From: a virus
Virus record (IMG/VR): IMGVR_UViG_3300035703_000376
Span: 1-26,689 of that record
Strand: one strand, 5' to 3'
Length of the DNA: 26,689 nucleotides
A program made the position numbers and the translations under genes. Under the pieces are notes generated by a model, which was given only the letters and a program-made list of their open reading frames with translations, was not told the origin of the DNA and made no database searches. This document shows positions 4,511 through 26,689 of the stretch, one piece after another. Position 1 is the stretch's first letter. Every line of letters starts with the position of its first letter.

Positions 4511-4539
4511 ATTTTAGTTAATTTGATTTTATCTGTCAA
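4511..4539 (-). promoter_or_regulatory. Sigma70 promoter for the gp33-gp59-DUF1825 genes
   Basis: TTGACA (4539-4534) and TAAAAT (4516-4511) on the minus strand are separated by exactly 17 nt. The -35 box overlaps the end of the endonuclease gene at 4529. The predicted start is about 45 nt before the gp33 ATG. The endonuclease therefore sits just upstream of this transcription unit without separating it from its promoter. Confidence 0.72.
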
Positions 4540-5191
4540 GGTAAATGCAATTTTTTCTTATCATATGATAAGAAATTTGATTTTCTTTCATTGCTTCTTT
4601 TATAGAAGAATATTCTTTTTCATTAAAAATAATTTTTTTTGCATTTGGATTTCCACCATCATTATATTTTTCAAATTTAATTCCTTTATTCCAAGGAGTT
4701 TTTCCTTTCATACTTTGGGATTGTTTTTTAGAAACTTCACATCTTTTCATTGGGTTATTATTTTTCATTCTTTCACTTTGTTCTTTTTTCCAAATTTCAG
4801 TATGACATTTACCATAAAAAGAATGTTCTTCTTTTGGTCTTCGATTGGGATTATTATTTCCTAACCACTTTTTTATGTTTATTCTTTTTTGGTTTTCATT
4901 GTGGTTTAAACCAAAAGTAGAAAATCCTGTTGAAGTTTGTCTTGCTTTATTTGCAAAGTGTGGATTTAAATCAACTTGGTAAAAAGTATGTAGTAAAACT
5001 TCCGAATTTAACATATCAATATTATTATCAAAAGTTTCTAAAATAATCTTTTGAGTTGGATTAAAACTTCTATCCTTAAAACTACCAAAATATTTTATAT
5101 CATTTTCTGGAAGACAATTGCAGATTCTACTTCCAATGTATCCTCTACCATATTCTTCATAAGAATAATAAACATAAAAATATTTTAACAT
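4529..5191 (-). CDS. GIY-YIG homing endonuclease with NUMOD3 and NUMOD1-like modules
   Basis: A 220-aa protein. The N-terminal catalytic motif is YFYVYYSYEEYGRGYIGSR (residues 4-22, 'VYY...YIG' with the following Arg). Residues about 108-165 hold NUMOD3-type repeats (NNNPNRRPKEEHSFYGK, NNNPMKRCEVSKKQSQSMKG, WNKG). The end (NAKKIIFNEKEYSSIKEAMKENQISYHMI) looks like a NUMOD1 helix-turn-helix. Such free-standing nucleases cut a related phage genome lacking them and so spread their own locus. It lies between the exonuclease gene and gp33, either of which may carry the target. Upstream are a late-type box 23 nt before the ATG and a long-range inverted repeat. Confidence 0.85.
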   Translation of the reverse strand: MLKYFYVYYSYEEYGRGYIGSRICNCLPENDIKYFGSFKDRSFNPTQKIILETFDNNIDMLNSEVLLHTFYQVDLNPHFANKARQTSTGFSTFGLNHNENQKRINIKKWLGNNNPNRRPKEEHSFYGKCHTEIWKKEQSERMKNNNPMKRCEVSKKQSQSMKGKTPWNKGIKFEKYNDGGNPNAKKIIFNEKEYSSIKEAMKENQISYHMIRKNCIYLDR

Positions 5192-8659: not shown

Positions 8660-9301
8660 TTATCTTTCATTATTAATAGCAAAATAACCTTTATGGTGTT
8701 TTCTTTTTCCATTCAATACCTTTATAATATGACTTACCGATAAATTATGTTCTTTACAAAAATGCGATATATTTTCAAGGACATATATTTCACCATCAGG
8801 AGATATTACAGTATTAAAATCTCTTTTTTTAATAGTAGTTTCTGGCAATTTCCAACCTTTATGCGATTTTAATTTTCCAGAAATTACTCTAGATAAAACA
8901 TGATTTGTTAGATTATTTTCTCTACAAAATTTAGTAACATTTTCACCTTCATAAATTTTTCCAGTAGGATCCATTATTACAAATTTTTTCCATCTATTAG
9001 GATTACAATATTTTTCTCCACCTAATGTGGAATTGTATCCAAATTTAAAGGTAGAAAAATGTTCTATCCAATATTTTTCTCTTTCATCAAGTTTTTCTAT
9101 ATTAACTTCTTCAATTATCCCCCAAACAAAATTATCAATACCATATTTTTTTATTGCGGAATAAAATTTATTTCTTTTTTTATATTTCAATGCGGCAGTT
9201 TTATGCTTACTTTTTCTTGCATTCAAATTATTAATTGTTTGCCCGATATATTTTTTTCCACTAATAATACAATGAGCACAATAAATTATCCCTTTAGACA
9301 T
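8660..9301 (-). CDS. GIY-YIG homing endonuclease with duplicated C-terminal modules
   Basis: A 213-aa product from ATG 9301 (MSKGIIYCAHCIISGKKYIGQT). An in-frame ATG 7 codons upstream (9322) would be cut off in a transcript from the late box at 9326-9333, so 9301 is preferred. The GIY-YIG motif is 'GIIYCAHCIISGKKYIG', followed by 'NARKSKH' and the helix 'AIKKYGIDNFVWGIIEEV'. The C-terminal half holds two copies of a DNA-binding module: 'DPTGKIYEGENVTKFCRENNLTNHVLSRVISGKLKSHKGW' (quoted in parts: DPTGKIYEGENVTKF, RVISGKLKSHKGW) and 'SPDGEIYVLENISHF..VLNGKRKHHKGY'. It lies between speD and the riboswitch module. Confidence 0.87.
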   Translation of the reverse strand: MSKGIIYCAHCIISGKKYIGQTINNLNARKSKHKTAALKYKKRNKFYSAIKKYGIDNFVWGIIEEVNIEKLDEREKYWIEHFSTFKFGYNSTLGGEKYCNPNRWKKFVIMDPTGKIYEGENVTKFCRENNLTNHVLSRVISGKLKSHKGWKLPETTIKKRDFNTVISPDGEIYVLENISHFCKEHNLSVSHIIKVLNGKRKHHKGYFAINNER

Positions 9302-9325
9302 TTTATTTTTTGAGTTCGGCATTTA

Positions 9326-12778: not shown

Positions 12779-14185
12779 TTATAAATTTATAAGTTGATTT
12801 AATGAAATATTTTTACCCTTAGTTTCCCACCAATTTAGAATTTCTTTGTGGGATTTTAAATTTACAGAATTTGGAGTTTGATTTTCGGAAGAATATTCTA
12901 ACCAAGTAGAATTGAAACAAATATTTTCTAAAAACAAGGGGAAACTATACATTTCAACATTACCAAAACAAGAATAAACTAAATTCTCTATAGTAGGAAG
13001 AAGAAAATAATAAGAATAGAATTCTAGTTCTCTACACCATTTATCTTTTCCTTTGTATTCTAAAATTATAGATTCTTCTGGATAGTAATTTTCAACTAAG
13101 GATTTAGCATGTTTTCTATTAATCAAATATGCACATCCAGACCAATCATCAAAACAGCGATGCCTAAATTTAACCTCTGGATTATAAAATAAAAACATAT
13201 CTTCTCTAACAACACACAATTGGACACATCCCCAATCATCAGGCAATTTATCGAAAAACTCCTCCCAAGTAAAGTTCCAATATTTTACACTTTCAAAGCT
13301 TAAATCATCTTCACAAAAAAATGCATATTCTTCTTCAGTGTTTTCATACCACTCTTTAATTGCCTTCAAATGAGAAGTAACTGGACCTTTTCCTGGAGTA
13401 AGCATTTTTAAGGGACCCTCAATTATTTGACAATCTCCTTCCTCATATTTTTTATAGACATGAGCAGTGATATTTTCAATTCCATATTTTTGAAAATTTT
13501 GATATAACAAGTCTCTCCTATCTTCAGATTCCTCTATACTTATAAAATTAACTGGAGGAAAATTTTTTAATTTTTCTGAGGTAAAGATTATACTTTTATT
13601 TTCAAAAGCCCAATCATATTCGTGTAGAGAATCTACCTTTGTATATCCCATACCCACCATCATATTAAGAATTGCTTTTTCATAATAACCTAGATGAAGA
13701 TGTTCAAATTCAATTCTTTTTATTTTATATTTCTGCCAATCAAAAGTGAGTAAAATTTCAGCATCAATACCTTCGATATCCAAGCATAACCAATCAAGTT
13801 CTTCTATTTCATACTTAGAAAATAATTCTTCAAGAGTCATACAAGGAACGGTAAAAGATTTTATTTCACCTTCACCATTTCTCCAAAGATGCGGACACCA
13901 TAAATGATTTTTAATGTGTTCAACATTACAAGATGCTAACTGATAATATGGATAATCATTCGTATGATAATATATTTCAAGAATATTATTTTTTTGTAAT
14001 GGAGTTCTAATCGCAATATTTTCTATATTGATATTATTATATTTTCCATAACATTCCCTTATACTATCAATATGTAAGATATTAGGCTCCACAAATAAAC
14101 CAAAGTCAAGAGTTTCATAATTTGTAATAAGATACTCCGATAAATCGTCAAATGCCCTATTGGTTCCTATCTGAACTATTCTCAT
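12779..14185 (-). CDS. FkbM-type methyltransferase / GT25 glycosyltransferase fusion
   Basis: A 468-aa two-domain protein. Residues 1-200 are an FkbM-like methyltransferase unit (MRIVQIGTNRAFDDLSEYL; 'FVEPNILHIDSIRECYG' with the acidic SAM residue; 'WLCLDIEGIDAEILLTFDW'; 'RIEFEHLHLGYYEKAI'). Residues about 210-450 are a GT25 domain ('FISIEESEDRRDLLYQNFQKYGIE', 'GKGPVTSHLKAIKEWY', 'AFFCEDDLSFESVKYW', 'WSGCAYLINRKHAKSLVE'). The first half is nearly the same as the next upstream gene, the second half resembles the downstream GT25 gene. It may methylate and extend a surface glycan. Confidence 0.87.
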   Translation of the reverse strand: MRIVQIGTNRAFDDLSEYLITNYETLDFGLFVEPNILHIDSIRECYGKYNNINIENIAIRTPLQKNNILEIYYHTNDYPYYQLASCNVEHIKNHLWCPHLWRNGEGEIKSFTVPCMTLEELFSKYEIEELDWLCLDIEGIDAEILLTFDWQKYKIKRIEFEHLHLGYYEKAILNMMVGMGYTKVDSLHEYDWAFENKSIIFTSEKLKNFPPVNFISIEESEDRRDLLYQNFQKYGIENITAHVYKKYEEGDCQIIEGPLKMLTPGKGPVTSHLKAIKEWYENTEEEYAFFCEDDLSFESVKYWNFTWEEFFDKLPDDWGCVQLCVVREDMFLFYNPEVKFRHRCFDDWSGCAYLINRKHAKSLVENYYPEESIILEYKGKDKWCRELEFYSYYFLLPTIENLVYSCFGNVEMYSFPLFLENICFNSTWLEYSSENQTPNSVNLKSHKEILNWWETKGKNISLNQLINL

Positions 14186-14193
14186 ATTGTATA

Positions 14194-14790
14194 TTAAGTC
14201 AATTTTTTTATTTCAAAAGCCCAATCATTTTGATGCAGAGAATCAACTTTATTATAACCCATAGAAATCATCATATCATAAATTATATTTGATTTTTCTC
14301 CTAAATGTAAATGTTCGAACTCAATTCTTTTTATTTTATATTTTTCCCAATTAAAAGTAAGTAAAATTTCAGCATCAATACCTTCAATATCCAAGTACAA
14401 CCAATCAAGTTCTGATATCGAATATTTATCGAACAATTTTTCCAGTGTCATACAAGGAACCGTAAAAGATTTTATTTCACCTCCAATGAGTGAAGATCCT
14501 GTCCAAAATATATGGGAAATAATATGATTAATATTACAAGAGGATATTTCATAGTTAGTATCCTTTGTGTGATAATAAATCGTTATATTATTTTCTTTAT
14601 ACGAAGGAATTTTTACTGCAATATTTTCTATATTGATATTATTATATTTTCCATAACATTCTTTTATACTATCAATGTGCAAAATATTTGGTTCTACAAA
14701 TAAACCAAATTCAAGAGTTTCATGATTTGCAAGAAGATAATTTGATAAATCATCAAATGCTCTATTGGTTCCTATCTGAACTACTTTCAT
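14194..14790 (-). CDS. FkbM-family methyltransferase
   Basis: A 198-aa stand-alone copy of the FkbM-like domain. It begins MKVVQIGTNRAFDDLSNYLL and has 'FVEPNILHIDSIKECYG', 'GGEIKSFTVPCMTLEKLFDKY' and 'LDWLYLDIEGIDAEILLTFNW'. It is highly similar to the N-terminal half of the following fusion protein, including long near-identical DNA stretches, which points to tandem duplication. FkbM enzymes O-methylate sugars using SAM. It heads the glycan cassette, with a strong sigma70 promoter just upstream. Confidence 0.85.
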   Translation of the reverse strand: MKVVQIGTNRAFDDLSNYLLANHETLEFGLFVEPNILHIDSIKECYGKYNNINIENIAVKIPSYKENNITIYYHTKDTNYEISSCNINHIISHIFWTGSSLIGGEIKSFTVPCMTLEKLFDKYSISELDWLYLDIEGIDAEILLTFNWEKYKIKRIEFEHLHLGEKSNIIYDMMISMGYNKVDSLHQNDWAFEIKKLT

Positions 14791-18679: not shown

Positions 18680-21517
18680 CTAATTAGGATTACTAGAAAT
18701 ACCAACTATATTTTCTATCTCATTAATTCTACGTACTAATTCTTGATTCTCGGCATCTAATTCTTTTACTGCATTTACCAGAATTGGAATTAAATATTCG
18801 TGAGTCAGCCCAAGATGATCTGGATTAGAATCATCAACAATGATATTATTTTCTCCTTCTAAGGAAAGTATTTCCTGAGCACTAAATCCATATCTGATTT
18901 TATCTTCTTTTAATTCACCAGTTTGTTTATCTTTAAAACTATACTTAATTGGTTTAACACCTCTTAGAAAATCTCTTCCATGAGGAACATCACCATAAAC
19001 ACACTTGTAACGAATATCAGAAGGAGTTGTCCAAGCAATCTGAATACAAGCAGTTGTATGAAAACTATTTCCCATCACAATATAATTTCCACAAGAACAA
19101 AGATTCACAAGTCCATCTGGTTCCCCACAGCAACCAAATCCAGACCCAGATCTCCAACCAATTGCAATATTATTGGACGCATTATAGTTAAATCTACCAC
19201 TATTATTTCCAATAAAAACATTGTTGCATCCAGAAAAATTTCCAGAACCAGCATAAGTACCAAAAAAATTATTATCACTTGCATAGCAACCACCATAAAA
19301 ACTATACCCTGCAGCATAACCAATAAAATTATTTCTATATGAATTGTTGGCACTATATCCTGCTGCATCACCTAAAAACACATTACAAGATCCATTAATG
19401 ATAAAATATCCAGCACTACGTCCAATAAAAGTATTTTTACTTCCAGCCATATTACAACCTCCAGCACTGCGACCGAAGAAATTATTATAACTTCCAGTAG
19501 CATTCCAATGACCAGCACAACTTCCAAAGAAATTATTATGACTTCCAGTAGCATTCCAATAGCCAGCATACCCTAAGAAATTATTACAACCACCGGTAGT
19601 ATTGGAAAATCCTGCAGTCTCACCAATAAAATTGTTACTGCTTCCTTCGGTATTGCAACTTCCAGCATAATAACCAAAAAAGTTATTAATCATTCCTGAG
19701 GTGGTAGATTTTCCAGAAGATAGTCCAAAGAAATTATTAGCAAATCCAATTGTGATATTTGAACCAGCGGATTTACCCATAACAATATTATGGGATCCAG
19801 TAGTACAAGCAGTTCTTGTTGCACTTCTACCTGAACACTCACCTAAGTAAATATTATTATCACCTTGATTCCAATATCCTGCATTTAGTCCTATTGCAAT
19901 TGAGTTGCTTTGAGTGGTGTTGCAGTATCCTGAAAATTCACCAAAGAAGTTATTACATGATCCGGTGGTGTTGAATCGTCCTACATTGCTACCAAAGAAG
20001 TTATTACTACCTCCAGTGGTGTTAACTAGTCCTGCCCCAAGTCCAAAGAAGTTATTATCATTTCCAGTGGTGTTGTTGCGTCCTGCAAAACAACCAATGA
20101 AGATATTATTACATCCAGTGGTGTTGGCGCATCCTGCAGAATATCCAAAAAAGTTATTATTAGTTCCAGTGGTGTTGCAGTATCCTGAAAATTCACCAAA
20201 GAAGTTATTACATGATCCGGTGGTGTTGAATCGTCCTACATTGCTACCAAAGAAGTTATTACTACCTCCAGTGGTGTTGCAGCATCCTACATTGGCACCA
20301 AAGAAGTTATTATTATTTCCAGTGGTGTTGTTGCATCCTGCTCGATTTCCAAAGAAGTTATTACGGCTTCCAGTTGTGTTACTTCTTCCTGCATAAAAAC
20401 CAAAAAAATTGTTTTCACATCCAGTAGTTAAAGAAGAACCAGCACCACAACCAACTAAGAAATTATTGGCTGATTTAGTAATAAAACTTATTGTAGTATT
20501 GCAAGATAAGAAATTGGAAGTACAACAAGCACTAATTGTTGTAGAACCACCGCTAGCAGCAGCCCATTCAATTCCAGTACCAGTAGATTTCAATACTTGA
20601 CCATTAGTTCCTGCACTATTATTAACATCATAAAGTTCTCCTCGTAATCTTAAGGCACCATTAATATCAAGTTTTTGTGTTGGATTTGTGGTTCCTATAC
20701 CGACATTACCCTCTCTAGAAATACGAACTTTTTCTGAAATTACATTATTATTTTGAGTACCAAAAGTTAAAAATGTATCACCCCATGCAGTACCACTTTG
20801 AATTTCACTGTAAATATATGATCTACCTTCAGTCAATTCAAGTTTGCCATAATCTCCATATGATGATGATCTACCTACTCTAATAATTGATGTTGCACCA
20901 CCTTGTACATCTAAATTTGCTAATGGATTTGTTCTGCCAATTCCAAGAATACCACTAACATAAGCCCCACCAGTAACCTGAAGTGGTTGTGATGCAGTTC
21001 CTGTATCTGTTTGAGAACCAATTAATAAATTTCTGTTTGAATTAATTCTTACTGCAGAATTATTTCCAATATAAAAATCATGATAAGCATTTGAATGGTA
21101 TTGTATATCCCCGATTGCACCAACACTAAATCCATATTGCTCTGTCCCACTATTATAAAGATAAATTTTTAGTTTATCTCTTGTAGCTCCATTAGAAAAA
21201 TTAATTCCAAGATCAATATATGATGGAGTTGAACTTGATCCACTAATACTGGTTCCTAATAAAATATTATTATTTGATATTAAACTGCTGGCAGTTAATG
21301 AACCAGTCTTAGTTTGATTAATATCACTTCTCAAAAACTGAGAGCTGCTAAGTCCAGAAAGAGTTCCAGCATTATCAAGAGATATAATGTTTTGACTTTC
21401 TCTTACATAAATTTTCTTATCAGCAGAATTAATAGCAAGTTCTCCATCAACCAAATCACTTATAGTTGGAATAGATGATGCAGTGCTAGATCTTTTTGGT
21501 TTGAATATATTTGCCAT
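18680..21517 (-). CDS. Tail fibre/adhesin with 17-residue repeats and S74 chaperone
   Basis: A 945-aa fibre protein. The N-terminus (MANIFKPKRSSTASSIPTIS, then 'DLVDGELAINSADKKIYV') resembles Mtd-type N-terminal attachment domains. Residues about 50-330 hold beta-rich segments with 'LGIGRTNPLANLDVQGG' and 'GNVGIGTTNPTQKLDINGAL'. Residues about 349-784 are roughly 25 repeats of a 17-residue unit, N-N-F-F-G-x-x-x-G-x-x-N-T-T-G-x-x, with about 30 Cys in the protein. From Ser833 (PSDIRYK) to the end is the intramolecular chaperone (peptidase S74), with 'GFSAQEILSLEG' and a coiled-coil end, which trimerises the fibre and cleaves itself off before the Ser. Likely host-receptor binding. Confidence 0.9.
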   Translation of the reverse strand: MANIFKPKRSSTASSIPTISDLVDGELAINSADKKIYVRESQNIISLDNAGTLSGLSSSQFLRSDINQTKTGSLTASSLISNNNILLGTSISGSSSTPSYIDLGINFSNGATRDKLKIYLYNSGTEQYGFSVGAIGDIQYHSNAYHDFYIGNNSAVRINSNRNLLIGSQTDTGTASQPLQVTGGAYVSGILGIGRTNPLANLDVQGGATSIIRVGRSSSYGDYGKLELTEGRSYIYSEIQSGTAWGDTFLTFGTQNNNVISEKVRISREGNVGIGTTNPTQKLDINGALRLRGELYDVNNSAGTNGQVLKSTGTGIEWAAASGGSTTISACCTSNFLSCNTTISFITKSANNFLVGCGAGSSLTTGCENNFFGFYAGRSNTTGSRNNFFGNRAGCNNTTGNNNNFFGANVGCCNTTGGSNNFFGSNVGRFNTTGSCNNFFGEFSGYCNTTGTNNNFFGYSAGCANTTGCNNIFIGCFAGRNNTTGNDNNFFGLGAGLVNTTGGSNNFFGSNVGRFNTTGSCNNFFGEFSGYCNTTQSNSIAIGLNAGYWNQGDNNIYLGECSGRSATRTACTTGSHNIVMGKSAGSNITIGFANNFFGLSSGKSTTSGMINNFFGYYAGSCNTEGSSNNFIGETAGFSNTTGGCNNFLGYAGYWNATGSHNNFFGSCAGHWNATGSYNNFFGRSAGGCNMAGSKNTFIGRSAGYFIINGSCNVFLGDAAGYSANNSYRNNFIGYAAGYSFYGGCYASDNNFFGTYAGSGNFSGCNNVFIGNNSGRFNYNASNNIAIGWRSGSGFGCCGEPDGLVNLCSCGNYIVMGNSFHTTACIQIAWTTPSDIRYKCVYGDVPHGRDFLRGVKPIKYSFKDKQTGELKEDKIRYGFSAQEILSLEGENNIIVDDSNPDHLGLTHEYLIPILVNAVKELDAENQELVRRINEIENIVGISSNPN
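19913..20278 (-). repeat. Exact 111-bp duplication within the 51-bp fibre repeats
   Basis: Bases 19913-20023 are identical to 20168-20278. The offset is 255 bp, exactly five 51-bp (17-codon) units. The copies encode the same 'GGSNNFFGSNVGRFNTTGSC' segment and what follows it. Identity at every third-codon position shows a recent copying event inside an older, diverged repeat array. Confidence 0.92.
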
Positions 21518-23004: not shown

Positions 23005-24909
23005 TTATGGAGTTTCGTAGGTTCCAAAATCATCAATATTTGGATCGGAATTATAATCATTATTAATTCCAAAGTATGTTTTAGGATTAACAAATTTAAA
23101 TCCAGAAATACTTGGATCATACACCATTAGATAATCTGTACTAATTCCAGTTAAATTACTGGTATCAATATCTTCCAATTGACCAAGTTGCATATGAATA
23201 TTTGATCCCTGAATATTTGTAACATTTGAACCATCACCAGAAAATGAAGTTGCAGAAACATCAGAAAAAATTGAAGATGTTCCAGTTCCAATATATCCAA
23301 GTGCAGTAATAATTCCAGTATAATTTGCACTACCATCAGAGTTGACTAATTGAACTTCCCCAGATTTAATTGAGCCACTTTCAGGATCAAGAGTAATTGA
23401 AGCAGTACCGATTGAGAGAATTCCAGTTACCCTAGCATTACCATAAACAAGAAGACTATTCCCAGGATAAGGACTTGTTTCTATTGCAGTTGTTCCAATT
23501 CCAACTTGAGCCAAAGTAAACGGACCATCAACACCGTCGGCCCATGCATCATTTGTTATATCAACATCAGTAAATTCAAACTTTTTAATTGCATGATTAT
23601 ATTTCAAATATTTACCATCATATGCAGATGGATTAGTGGCAATTCCAACAATATCATCAAGATACTGAAGTCTTGTCTCACCACCACCACCAAGTGATGC
23701 AAGTTGTTGCTGAACACGATTAATAAAAACTCGATAATGTTCTTGAAGTTGATCTAATGTAACAAATTTTTGATCTAATGGAGTAAGTGGGTCTTCCGTC
23801 TTTACTGACTCAGGAGGTACTTCCTCATTTAACAATTGTTTAGAAGTTTTATTTTCAATACTTTCATAAAGTTCTTCAAGTTCTCTAACTTTTACTTTAA
23901 TGTTTTTATTTTCTTCAATAATGTCATAAATTTTTAAATCTTGAATAGTATCATAAATTTCTTTTTGAATTGTCTCTAATTCTTTGGTTTGCTTTTTAAT
24001 ACGATTTTCATTTATTACAACTTCTGATTCTATCCTAACAACTTTATCAAAAATAGTTTTTTTAAATGAACCCAATGCAGAATTCTTTAAGTAACTTTCA
24101 ATATATTCAATTCTTTTATCTTGTTGATCATCAATAGATTTATTTTCTGTTATACTTTGTACAACTGCATTAAGATTTGATGTCGTTTCAACCAAAACAA
24201 CATCAGTAATTTTTTTTAAATTTTCTTGAATCTCCTCAAACTTTTTCCTAGATTCAAGTTTTATTTTTTGAAGTTCTATATTATTTGCATTTGTCTCTTC
24301 ACCTAAAAGATTTTCAATGGACTGAATACTTTCATAAACTTCATTTTTTACTTTTTGAATATCTAGTGTTCTTTTACCTATTTCAATAAGTTGATCTTCA
24401 ACATTATTTTGAATTAAAGAAACACTTTCATTAATCGGGGAAATCTTTTGACCAATTAAATCTTCAATTCTACTATCAGTTCTAATCTCAAAATCTACAA
24501 GATTTTTTTTATATTTGGGTATATCTTTATCAATAAAATTTTCAACTTTTTTCAATAAAAACCCAGTATCTTCACGAATTTCACTTAATTTTTCTTCATT
24601 AATAGTTTTAACATTGTTCTCTATATTTGAAATTGCTTCGTTAACATAAAGAAGTTGAGAAAAGATGCTACTATCCAAATCTTCTTTTTTAATTGTTTTT
24701 TGAAGTTCGTCTTTAAGAAGAACAACTTGTTCAGAAAGAGAATTTAAAGTATTTAATTTATCCTCAAAATCATTTAAATACCCCTTATAATTATTAAAAA
24801 CATCAAAAACATTATTAAATTTTTCTTCTGAAATTTTTACCGATAAAGAATTTACATCATTAAAATTAGGTTTCTTATTAAAGAAATCAGAGGGTTTCTT
24901 CAATGGCAC
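23005..24909 (-). CDS. Long coiled-coil virion structural/fibre protein
   Basis: A 634-aa protein starting at GTG 24909, with GGAG 8 nt before it. Residues about 20-350 are helical with many heptads (LNSLSEQVVLLKDELQKTIK, 'ENIKVKVRELEELYESIENK' region), a long coiled-coil stalk. Residues 380-634 are a beta-rich fibre part ('EHYRVFINRVQQQLASLGGG', 'TRLQYLDDIVGIATNPSAYD', 'TAQVGIGTTAIETS'-like repeats, 'ATSFSGDGSNVTNI'). The 'LGGGGETRLQYLDDIVGI' block is widely shared by cyanomyovirus structural proteins. It heads the fibre unit. Confidence 0.83.
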   Translation of the reverse strand: MPLKKPSDFFNKKPNFNDVNSLSVKISEEKFNNVFDVFNNYKGYLNDFEDKLNTLNSLSEQVVLLKDELQKTIKKEDLDSSIFSQLLYVNEAISNIENNVKTINEEKLSEIREDTGFLLKKVENFIDKDIPKYKKNLVDFEIRTDSRIEDLIGQKISPINESVSLIQNNVEDQLIEIGKRTLDIQKVKNEVYESIQSIENLLGEETNANNIELQKIKLESRKKFEEIQENLKKITDVVLVETTSNLNAVVQSITENKSIDDQQDKRIEYIESYLKNSALGSFKKTIFDKVVRIESEVVINENRIKKQTKELETIQKEIYDTIQDLKIYDIIEENKNIKVKVRELEELYESIENKTSKQLLNEEVPPESVKTEDPLTPLDQKFVTLDQLQEHYRVFINRVQQQLASLGGGGETRLQYLDDIVGIATNPSAYDGKYLKYNHAIKKFEFTDVDITNDAWADGVDGPFTLAQVGIGTTAIETSPYPGNSLLVYGNARVTGILSIGTASITLDPESGSIKSGEVQLVNSDGSANYTGIITALGYIGTGTSSIFSDVSATSFSGDGSNVTNIQGSNIHMQLGQLEDIDTSNLTGISTDYLMVYDPSISGFKFVNPKTYFGINNDYNSDPNIDDFGTYETP

Positions 24910-24944
24910 TTATTTTCTCCCTACTATAGTCGTTGCATAATTAA

Positions 24945-24952
24945 TATTTATT
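24945..24952 (-). promoter_or_regulatory. Late promoter box of the fibre unit
   Basis: AATAAATA on the minus strand, 36 nt before the GTG at 24909. It is one half of a divergent late-promoter pair. Confidence 0.62.
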
Positions 24953-24976
24953 ATATACTAAGCAATCAAAATTTTC

Positions 24977-24984
24977 AATAAATA
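24977..24984 (+). promoter_or_regulatory. Late promoter box of the exported-protein cluster
   Basis: AATAAATA on the plus strand, 27 nt before the ATG at 25011. Its centre is only about 32 bp from the opposite box, so the 24910-25010 gap is fully used as a divergent late promoter. Confidence 0.65.
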
Positions 24985-25010
24985 ACTAAGAGTTTATTTT
25001 CACCAAAAAA

Positions 25011-25472
25011 ATGAAAAGATTAGCACTGGTCTTTTCGTTATTCTTCACTACTCCAACTTTTGCCTCTGAAATCACATCAAAAATCGTTGATTCCGTACAA
25101 TTAAATGTTCAGGGTGCAGCTGTACAATCAAATAGAGTAGGAGGTTCCTATTCAGTCTCAGGTACAAATATTAACGTTACAACTCTCGGTGGAGTTGGTA
25201 ATGCTGGTTCTTATAACATTAATACAAATGGTGCAGCATTTACTTTTTCTGAAACATCAGTCACTGCTGATACTGTTGTCACCACTCAGTCGGCAGCTTC
25301 TGGAACAATCGCTTCTCCCAACCTTTATAGCAACTCTACTACTCAGTTAGGTGGAGATAAAGGTACTCTCGCAGGTTCTTTATCAACAACTGGTGCTCCT
25401 ACTGTCACTGCAGGTGGTTCAGGAACTACAGCAACCGCACAACGTAGTGTAGAACTGAGTGTATTCAAGTGA
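25011..25472 (+). CDS. Exported cyanophage protein, first of a related pair
   Basis: A 153-aa protein with a clear signal peptide (KRLALVFSLFFTTPTFA, cleavage before SEITSK). The mature part is Ser/Thr/Gly/Ala-rich beta structure: 'SVQLNVQGAAVQSNRVGGSY', 'SVSGTNINVTTLGGVGNAG', 'NTNGAAFTFSETS'. It ends in ELSVFK. The same ordered motifs recur in the next protein, so the two are paralogues. Such proteins are conserved in T4-like cyanophages, but no role is known. Transport to the periplasm or outer surface is unusual for a virion part and suggests action on the host envelope (inference). Confidence 0.78.
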   Translation: MKRLALVFSLFFTTPTFASEITSKIVDSVQLNVQGAAVQSNRVGGSYSVSGTNINVTTLGGVGNAGSYNINTNGAAFTFSETSVTADTVVTTQSAASGTIASPNLYSNSTTQLGGDKGTLAGSLSTTGAPTVTAGGSGTTATAQRSVELSVFK

Positions 25473-25831
25473 GACACATAACTCCCGTTCTGCTAGCAGC
25501 AGCGGGATTTATATCTCCCTGCTATGCTGCTCCCGTCACTCCTAACTTTACAAGTGGCACAATTACTTCTGAGACTAAAACTCGCACCGAAGTGATTGAA
25601 GTTATCAAACAAATAGAATATACCACTGGGACATCTTATACAGTCACTGGCACAAACATCAATATCCCTGCTCGTCCAGAGCCAGGAGCGAACTACACCA
25701 TCATCAATCAAGGTGCTCCGTTCCAGTTTAGTGAGACTCATCTGACTCCTGGAATTGCCAAAGAAACATGGATAGATCGCAAAACTACCGAAGATTCGGT
25801 AACAAACTCAATATCTGTCTTTACACAATAA
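25469..25831 (+). CDS. Exported cyanophage protein, second of a related pair
   Basis: A 120-aa protein starting at a GTG that overlaps the previous TGA (GTGA). The signal peptide is 'RHITPVLLAAAGFISPCYA', cut before APVTPN. The mature part has 'TEVIEVIKQIEYTTGTSYTV', 'TGTNINIPARPEPGANYTI' and 'NQGAPFQFSETHLTPG', ending SISVFTQ. These match the preceding protein's SGTNI, GAAFTFSET and SVFK blocks in order. Likely a duplicated secreted family. Confidence 0.75.
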   Translation: MRHITPVLLAAAGFISPCYAAPVTPNFTSGTITSETKTRTEVIEVIKQIEYTTGTSYTVTGTNINIPARPEPGANYTIINQGAPFQFSETHLTPGIAKETWIDRKTTEDSVTNSISVFTQ

Positions 25832-26409
25832 CAGGAATACTATTATTAACTCTTATAACTTCCTCAAAAAGTAGAGCGCAGCAAGCACCATCTAATACAA
25901 ATATTGCAGGACCTCAAGCATCTGCTACTGGAAATGTAACCAACCAGGCAGTGCAGGTGCTTCAGGGTCCTTATGCTATGAATACTTATGGTAATGGTTC
26001 CAGTTGCCAAGGACCATCACTCAATCTAACCACTTTTGGATATAACAGTTTATCCAATAATACAGATCCAACATCATATCAACAAAATTCAACTAATGCT
26101 GGGATTTCTGCTGGTTTTTCATTACCTCTTGATGGTTCATTACAAGAACTATGCAAAGAAAGAGTTCGTGTAGAGATTGAAAGGCAACGAGCAGAAGCAG
26201 CAAAAGCAAGACTTGATTTTGAACTTGTAAGATTACTAAAATGCGGAGAAGCAAAAAAATCAGGAGTTGATTTTCACCCAAACAGTCCATATTCAAAAGT
26301 ATGTTCTGATATTATTACACAACCACCAAAAATTGTTACAGTTGACCCCACAGGTACAATAAATAAGAAGTTACCAGTAAAACAGGCAAATGGCAAAGTC
26401 AGCAAATAA
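25768..26409 (+). CDS. Exported conserved cyanophage protein
   Basis: A 213-aa protein whose only usable ATG overlaps the previous gene by 64 nt. N-terminal extension, then signal segment 'ICLYTITGILLLTLITSSKS' with likely cleavage near SRAQ/QAPS. The mature part has 'NQAVQVLQGPYAMNTYGNGS', a Cys pair, 'GISAGFSLPLDGSLQELCKE', a charged helix (ERQRAEAAKARLDFELVRLL) and 'GVDFHPNSPYSKVCSDI'. The pattern is conserved in cyanomyoviruses. Several Cys suggest disulfides in the periplasm. Function unknown. Confidence 0.75.
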   Translation: MDRSQNYRRFGNKLNICLYTITGILLLTLITSSKSRAQQAPSNTNIAGPQASATGNVTNQAVQVLQGPYAMNTYGNGSSCQGPSLNLTTFGYNSLSNNTDPTSYQQNSTNAGISAGFSLPLDGSLQELCKERVRVEIERQRAEAAKARLDFELVRLLKCGEAKKSGVDFHPNSPYSKVCSDIITQPPKIVTVDPTGTINKKLPVKQANGKVSK

Positions 26410-26503
26410 AGGGAAAAAAGGATCTGCTGGTGGAAAGCAATCCAAACAAAACCAAGGTAATGCGACTGCCAAAAAAGCAAAAAATGGTGGTAAGAAAAAA
26501 TGA
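26390..26503 (+). CDS. Tiny lysine-rich protein, 37 aa
   Basis: ATG 26390 lies within the end of the exported-protein gene; TGA at 26501-26503 overlaps the next ATG (ATGA). The product starts MAKSANKGKKGSAGGKQSKQ and ends in a KKAKNGGKKK tail: about one third Lys, the rest Gly/Ala/Asn/Ser. It is probably disordered and binds nucleic acid or another polyanion. The precise coupling on both sides supports translation. Confidence 0.6.
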   Translation: MAKSANKGKKGSAGGKQSKQNQGNATAKKAKNGGKKK

Positions 26504-26688
26504 TTGAACTATTATTAGTTCTTTTTATTGGAAATTTAATTACTAACATAACAATTGATAATATTGAATGCAACTCAAATTATGTTGGAGATCAACATGA
26601 TGGCGACACAGGAATAATCTACATTTGTAAATATGCCAAGAGAATGGAACACTCCAAAGAGGGAGTGTTGGAACTCCCCAATCCATAA
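26500..26688 (+). CDS. Small membrane-anchored protein at the end of the cluster
   Basis: A 62-aa protein. Residues 2-17 (IELLLVLFIGNLITNI) are an N-terminal hydrophobic anchor or uncleaved signal. They are followed by a hydrophilic part with two Cys (NIECNSNYVGDQHDGDTG, 'IYICKYAKRMEHS'). It is coupled to the lysine-rich gene by ATGA and complete, its TAA ending one base before the window end. Function unknown. Confidence 0.62.
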   Translation: MIELLLVLFIGNLITNITIDNIECNSNYVGDQHDGDTGIIYICKYAKRMEHSKEGVLELPNP

Positions 26689-26689
26689 T

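Follow-up and report, generated by a model that had tools for sequence, protein, structure and literature searches.

Late, overlapping genes for exported proteins in cyanophages: a candidate lysis or envelope-disruption module

Results

Organization of the locus

The stretch of DNA analysed here (the window) comprises 26,689 nucleotides of the IMG/VR virus record IMGVR_UViG_3300035703_000376. Its gene content, which includes psbA, tail fibres and, by reading, phoH-, thyX- and speD-like genes, and its closest match at the DNA level, the freshwater Synechococcus phage DSL-LC03, in which the gene order is identical, identify the window as a fragment of a T4-like (Kyanoviridae) freshwater cyanophage. 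Five overlapping open reading frames (g1 to g5) occupy the end of the window, on the plus strand, downstream of one late box:

23005-24909, minus strand: tail-fibre-like gene, by sequence match to tail fibre
24945-24952, minus strand: divergent late box AATAAATA, 36 nt before the tail-fibre-like gene, read directly
24977-24984, plus strand: late box AATAAATA upstream of g1-g5, a match to the NATAAATA motif
25011-25472, plus strand: g1, exported protein of 153 aa; phrog_564, T4-GC237, "OMP1"
25469-25831, plus strand: g2, exported protein of 120 aa with a GTG start, paralogue of g1; phrog_650, Pfam DUF6322, T4-GC236
25768-26409, plus strand: g3, exported protein of 213 aa with four invariant cysteines; phrog_848/1755, T4-GC235, "gp165"
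26390-26503, plus strand: g4, Lys-rich mini-protein of 37 aa, a single-copy floating gene of freshwater cyanophages
26500-26688, plus strand: g5, 62-aa reading frame with an N-terminal hydrophobic stretch, weakly conserved
26649-26668, plus strand: terminator-like inverted repeat ACACTCC-N6-GGAGTGT, within the 3' end of g5

An earlier reading made from the sequence alone had described these five genes as overlapping in series, and all its starts, coordinates and overlaps were reproduced: 4 nt between g1 and g2 (GTGA), 64 nt between g2 and g3, 20 nt between g3 and g4, and an ATGA junction between g4 and g5. The 4-nt g1/g2 overlap, of ATGA/GTGA type, recurs in 50 loci.

Elsewhere in the window, inspection by eye found a 945-aa protein (18680-21517, minus strand), probably a long tail fibre, that bears many repeats of the NNFFG/NTTG type and whose C-terminus looks like an intramolecular chaperone. 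Two neighbouring, clearly related proteins (12779-14790, minus strand) have an N-terminal region (MK/RIVQIGTNRAFDDLS...) in common, with a glycosyltransferase-like part fused to the longer of them, and two further proteins (4529-5191 and 8660-9322, both minus strand) resemble GIY-YIG-type homing endonucleases.

Late promoter and export signals

The late box AATAAATA, located 27 nt before the ATG of g1, matches the published late motif of cyanomyoviruses, NATAAATA (PMC2984593). In 64 of 79 loci the pattern [AC]TAAATA begins 16 to 40 nt before g1, with a peak at -31, against a background of 0.7% of random 31-nt windows; chance is thereby ruled out as the source of the late box noted in the sequence-only reading.

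Signal peptides and transmembrane (TM) segments were scored by simple rules (an h-region followed by AxA, and hydropathy, respectively). The signal peptides initially read on the first three proteins were borne out, the h-region and AxA being present in 56/56 g1, 73/75 g2 and 61/62 g3 relatives and in 17% of control frames. The g3 protein presents exactly four cysteines, invariant among 86 sequences, a pattern that suits a protein exported and oxidised. The proposed paralogy of g1 and g2 likewise holds once their signal peptides are removed, with a profile-profile comparison returning a probability of 95% (E 2.9e-8).

Both g1 and g2 are polar and Thr/Ser-rich in composition. A structural model of g2 (pLDDT 82, fair confidence) predicts two strands, each of about 24 residues, that pair as a hairpin and carry a small head. 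Its weak matches are to stem hairpins of ring-forming proteins and to phage collar proteins (lowest Foldseek E 2.7e-3; highest Z 4.4, for 56 residues aligned at 6.6 A), and the fold is generic, so that the predicted resemblance to ring-forming stem hairpins is suggestive only. A transmembrane barrel is not claimed for g2, because the hairpin strands are Thr/Ser-rich and lack strong hydrophobic alternation. In the g3 model (pLDDT 63, low confidence), a signal helix is followed by a disordered stretch, then by a short hairpin and a helix of 42 residues; this model was too uncertain to enter the argument. Searches against Pfam, PHROGs and PDB sequences returned no function for g1, g2 or g3.

Overlapping reading frames of g2 and g3

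The g3 gene lies in the same shifted frame relative to g2 in 103 of 109 pairs. In 96% of 103 distinct pairs this frame runs without a stop through at least 60 nt of g2, against 24% under synonymous codon reshuffling, an excess that marks the overlap as true double coding, g3 starting within g2 in another frame. Several public records (e.g. L002 8874-9389 and L136 5784-6239) place the g3 start downstream of the overlapping frame, which hides the g3 signal peptide, and in ACG-2014j (L003) g2 carries no annotation.

Gene families and their spread across cyanophages

Profile searches assigned g1 to phrog_564 (E 4e-27), g2 to phrog_650 (E 1e-25) and g3 to phrog_848 (E 2e-52), families present in 266, 375 and 462 phage records, respectively, essentially all of them cyanophage-like; the g1 family is named "OMP1" in the annotation of S-RSM2. 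Sullivan et al. (2010) described T4-GC218, 219, 234, 235 and 237 as one cluster of hypotheticals, found in 15 of their 16 cyanophages, all but S-PM2 (PMC3037559). The families, their order and their neighbours (T4-GC218, 219 and 234) in that T4-GC235/236/237 cluster are those observed here, and the cluster was described as hypothetical genes only (PMC3037559). The literature found holds no report of the module's export signals, late box, overlap coding, or presence in T7-like phages and P-HS2. The initial impression that nothing had been described thus stands for function, for which no description was found in the literature, and fails for the genes themselves, which belong to the known families T4-GC235/236/237, "OMP1" and DUF6322.

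Conservation of the gene neighbourhood, which the sequence-only reading had named as a check, proved strong. In contigs fetched with g3 as bait, g1 and g2 not being used as such, the g1-g2-g3 order was fixed in every viral contig holding the three. The trio or its g2-g3 part is found in T4-like phages, in T7-like phages and in P-HS2, a 38-kb phage that is not T4-like and that presents DUF6450, g1, g2 and g3 overlapping in series, with T4-GC234 convergent to the series. The T7-like phages NATL1A-7, S-RIP1, P-RSP2 and P-SSP7 contain DUF6450-g2-g3, and a T4-GC234-like tail (a weak match) lies directly upstream of this block in NATL1A-7 and S-RIP1. From these gene orders, the exported set is not specific to T4-like phages and crosses phage morphotypes, a spread over three kinds of phage that would be unexpected for a virion part of one morphotype.

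When 84,980 genomes were scanned for g3 with a single conserved peptide pattern, 14 loci came up, all apparently cyanophage contigs within SAGs, MAGs and one isolate assembly, and no host source of g3 was found. A weak match resembling g2, in a giant protein of MED4-213 (E 3e-4), was dropped, as inspection revealed repetitive tail-fibre-like sequence. Assemblies labelled Nonlabens xiamenensis (a 188 kb contig), Formosa, Lewinella and Bacteroidetes (L105, L100, L102 and L104) also hold cyanophage genes, likely through contamination or misbinning.

Association with the two-TM protein DUF6450

Of 127 distinct DUF6450 (T4-GC218) proteins, 120 have a pair of TM-like segments under the hydropathy rule. 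DUF6450 was found in 16/16 records with g2 and g3 and in 1/7 records without them (Fisher p 7e-5, relatedness between records being ignored). In S-PM2, S-SZBM1, S-CREM2, S-SRM01, S-CRM01 and Syn5, neither g2 and g3 nor DUF6450 was detected above the cut-off.

The gene order in P-SSP7 is tail fibres, 042 (one TM), 043 (DUF6450), 044 (g2), 045 (g3), 046 and the small terminase; the record of 043 notes "2 transmembrane regions", and 044 has a signal peptide. In T7, the tail fibre is followed by the class II holin, the small terminase and Rz/Rz1. In both P-SSP7 and NATL1A-7, DUF6450 directly precedes g2-g3 between tail fibre and small terminase, and, by gene order, the block occupies the location of the T7 class II holin. 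Like that holin (T7 17.5), DUF6450 is small, has two TM segments and a charged tail, and follows the tail fibre in T7-like phages; no sequence similarity was shown between the two, and none of the family libraries searched names DUF6450 a holin.

The T4-GC234-like proteins (L136 4740-5105, which is P-SSP7 042, and L015 6678-7325) are rich in proline and have a single hydrophobic segment, located C-terminally, together with a basic tail. If oriented N-out/C-in, these proteins would fit the alternative i-spanin imagined by Kongari et al.

The genes g4 and g5

The 37-aa g4 protein is Lys-rich and highly cationic, and contains no I, L, V, F, W or Y in MAKSANKGKKGSAGGKQSKQNQGNATAKKAKNGGKKK. Its 119 distinct DNA copies vary almost wholly at third codon positions, a bias that is partly ascertainment, given that the search pattern was a back-translation. 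Among 155 loci, which are not independent phages and some of which overlap, 68 copies start on or just after the DUF6450 stop codon, 14 come after g3 and 73 are in other places, many of these behind a late box of their own. The three matching annotated genomes hold one copy each, after g3 in DSL-LC03, after DUF6450 in DSL-LC02 and alone in S-SRM01, which has g4 without g3 or DUF6450; the context differs even between the same-lake phages DSL-LC03 and DSL-LC02 (window 26390-26503; L011 7104-7205; L012 4002-4103). At the sensitivity of the search pattern, g4 was absent from the marine phages tested.

These data indicate that g4 is a real and very conserved gene of freshwater cyanophages, a floating late gene that favours both halves of the module and is inherited separately. 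Of the claim that a Lys-rich protein of 37 aa is the fourth member of the cluster, the gene has therefore been retained and its fixed membership abandoned, given the three contexts. As a very short, highly cationic late protein, g4 is reminiscent of disruptin (phiKT gp28) and of cationic outer-membrane-active tails. Disruptin-like lysis peptides are defined as cationic and amphipathic, and g4, which lacks a hydrophobic face and hence does not look amphipathic, was rejected as one of them.

For g5 a single relative was identified (L020, 69% identity), with differences distributed over the three codon positions as 8/3/16, making it a weaker gene than g4. For the membrane anchor ascribed to it, which is plausible, the protein offers only a short N-terminal hydrophobic stretch. 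The ACACTCC-N6-GGAGTGT repeat is found downstream of 12 of 126 distinct g4 copies, usually at 119 nt, which suggests that g4 and the terminator-like hairpin move together.

Discussion

A late, exported and overlapping set of genes that is tied to a holin-like gene in spanin-less phages favours a lysis module. We propose, with confidence that stops somewhat short of even, that g1-g2-g3 constitute the exported half of a cyanophage-specific late lysis or envelope-disruption module, whose membrane half would comprise the two-TM DUF6450/T4-GC218, the one-TM T4-GC234 (phrog_570) and T4-GC219, and whose task would be to open the envelope as infection ends. In the inner membrane, DUF6450 would play the part of a class-II-type holin. 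Exported through Sec, g1 and g2, the latter perhaps assembling as rings or fibres, would act from the periplasm on peptidoglycan or the outer membrane, and g3, probably stabilised by disulphides, would act there with them, the three taking the place of the spanins missing from these phages. The oligomerisation, outer-membrane target and lysis role of the module are what we infer.

The sequence-only reading had suggested an envelope-directed function, with a lysis aid, a superinfection block or outer-membrane modification as options. Late expression, export and an envelope role are well supported, and among the options the lysis aid is favoured by the co-occurrence and synteny with DUF6450, by the T7 holin location of the block in podoviruses and by the lack of spanins in the carriers. 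A published survey classes P-SSP7, Syn9, S-SM1, P-SSM2, P-HM2, Syn1 and S-SSM5, among others, as spanin-less; it gives the route of outer-membrane disruption in such cyanophages as unknown and asks about another route (PMC6139136).

Several observations speak against a lysis role of the module. Kongari et al. considered that cyanobacterial outer membranes may need no active disruption (PMC6139136). S-PM2 and Syn5 lyse their hosts without g2 and g3, and the module is hence not universally needed. In most T4-like genomes DUF6450 lies some genes off, on the opposite strand; in the T4-like phages the endolysins are located elsewhere and a holin is proven in none. Tests of neighbouring genes in P-HS2, NATL1A-7 and S-RIP1 revealed no endolysin beside the module.

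Two-component spanins (lambda Rz/Rz1 and T7 18.5/18.7) offer a parallel, as they too are a late exported pair in which the second gene starts within the first in another frame; a further common point, in T7-like cyanophages, is that the module adjoins a gene resembling a class II holin and lies between the tail fibre and the terminase. In contrast to spanins, g1 and g2 have no lipoprotein signal, a lipobox near the N-terminus being absent from all 60 g1 and 82 g2 sequences (142 together) and present in 2 of 86 g3 sequences, and the partner is beta-rich. The N-terminal hydrophobic segment of g3, checked as a possible i-spanin anchor, carries an AxA cleavage-like motif in 61 of 62 sequences, so that g3 looks cleavable by signal peptidase I and is less likely anchored. 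The module therefore corresponds to no known spanin type. A more specific scheme, in which a DUF6450 holin, a g1/g2 hairpin pair and an overlapping, disulphide-bonded g3 would accomplish lipoprotein-free outer-membrane disruption across cyanophage morphotypes, with g4 as an accessory in freshwater lineages, is doubtful as a whole.

An unlikely alternative to the lysis module, although the strongest of those considered, is late surface remodelling, whereby the exported proteins would coat or modify the outer membrane and block either superinfection or the adsorption of sibling phages to the dying cell and its debris. Export, the older outer-membrane-like annotation "OMP1" and the presence of the genes in unrelated cyanophages with common hosts fit this explanation, and abundant small beta proteins would suit a coat. 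Nonetheless, T4-type superinfection exclusion genes are early, whereas a late promoter precedes the set in nearly all relatives, making superinfection exclusion less likely; nor would remodelling predict strict co-occurrence with a two-TM holin-like gene.

It is more improbable still that g1 and g2 polymerise outside the cell or on particles as curli-like fibres or adhesins that aid attachment or aggregation. The long two-stranded hairpin predicted for g2 and its weak fold matches to ring/stem hairpins and phage collar proteins would agree with fibres, and pelagimyophages, marine T4-like phages, bear a comparable exported cluster whose role is unknown, a curli-like operon with CsgG/CsgF (PMC7029224). 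However, the g1-g3 profiles gave no match at E 1e-3 in positions 1-50000 of HTVC008M, which hold that operon, and in view of this lack of detectable homology a curli link was rejected. The proteins are also common to T4-like, T7-like and other phages, and signal peptides are unusual for virion parts; this distribution and these export signals make a virion role for g1-g3 less likely. As weak evidence in the same direction, several neighbours of the genes in S-TIM5 are labelled "virion structural protein and packaging" and g1-g3 "hypothetical". The virion proteomics tables of S-SZBM1 and S-CREM2 are uninformative on this point, as both phages lack the genes. A periplasmic aid to nutrient uptake or photosynthesis during infection, in the manner of pstS and psbA, is very improbable: the trio does adjoin psbA or pstS/hsp20 in many genomes, but these neighbours vary while the trio and DUF6450 are constant, T7-like phages hold the module between tail fibre and terminase, and all the loci from the single-pattern g3 scan resembled cyanophage contigs.

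The genes of the putative lysis module were already known; their cross-morphotype spread, their co-occurrence with DUF6450 and the T7-holin-like position of the block are new here. The lysis of Prochlorococcus and Synechococcus by phages accounts for a major carbon flux in the ocean. With most marine cyanophages placed as spanin-less (PMC6139136), the module provides a named candidate for the alternative route, covering families annotated as hypothetical only in hundreds of genomes. Were the more specific, lipoprotein-free scheme correct, cyanophages would possess a third-step lysis machinery of a new kind in place of spanins.
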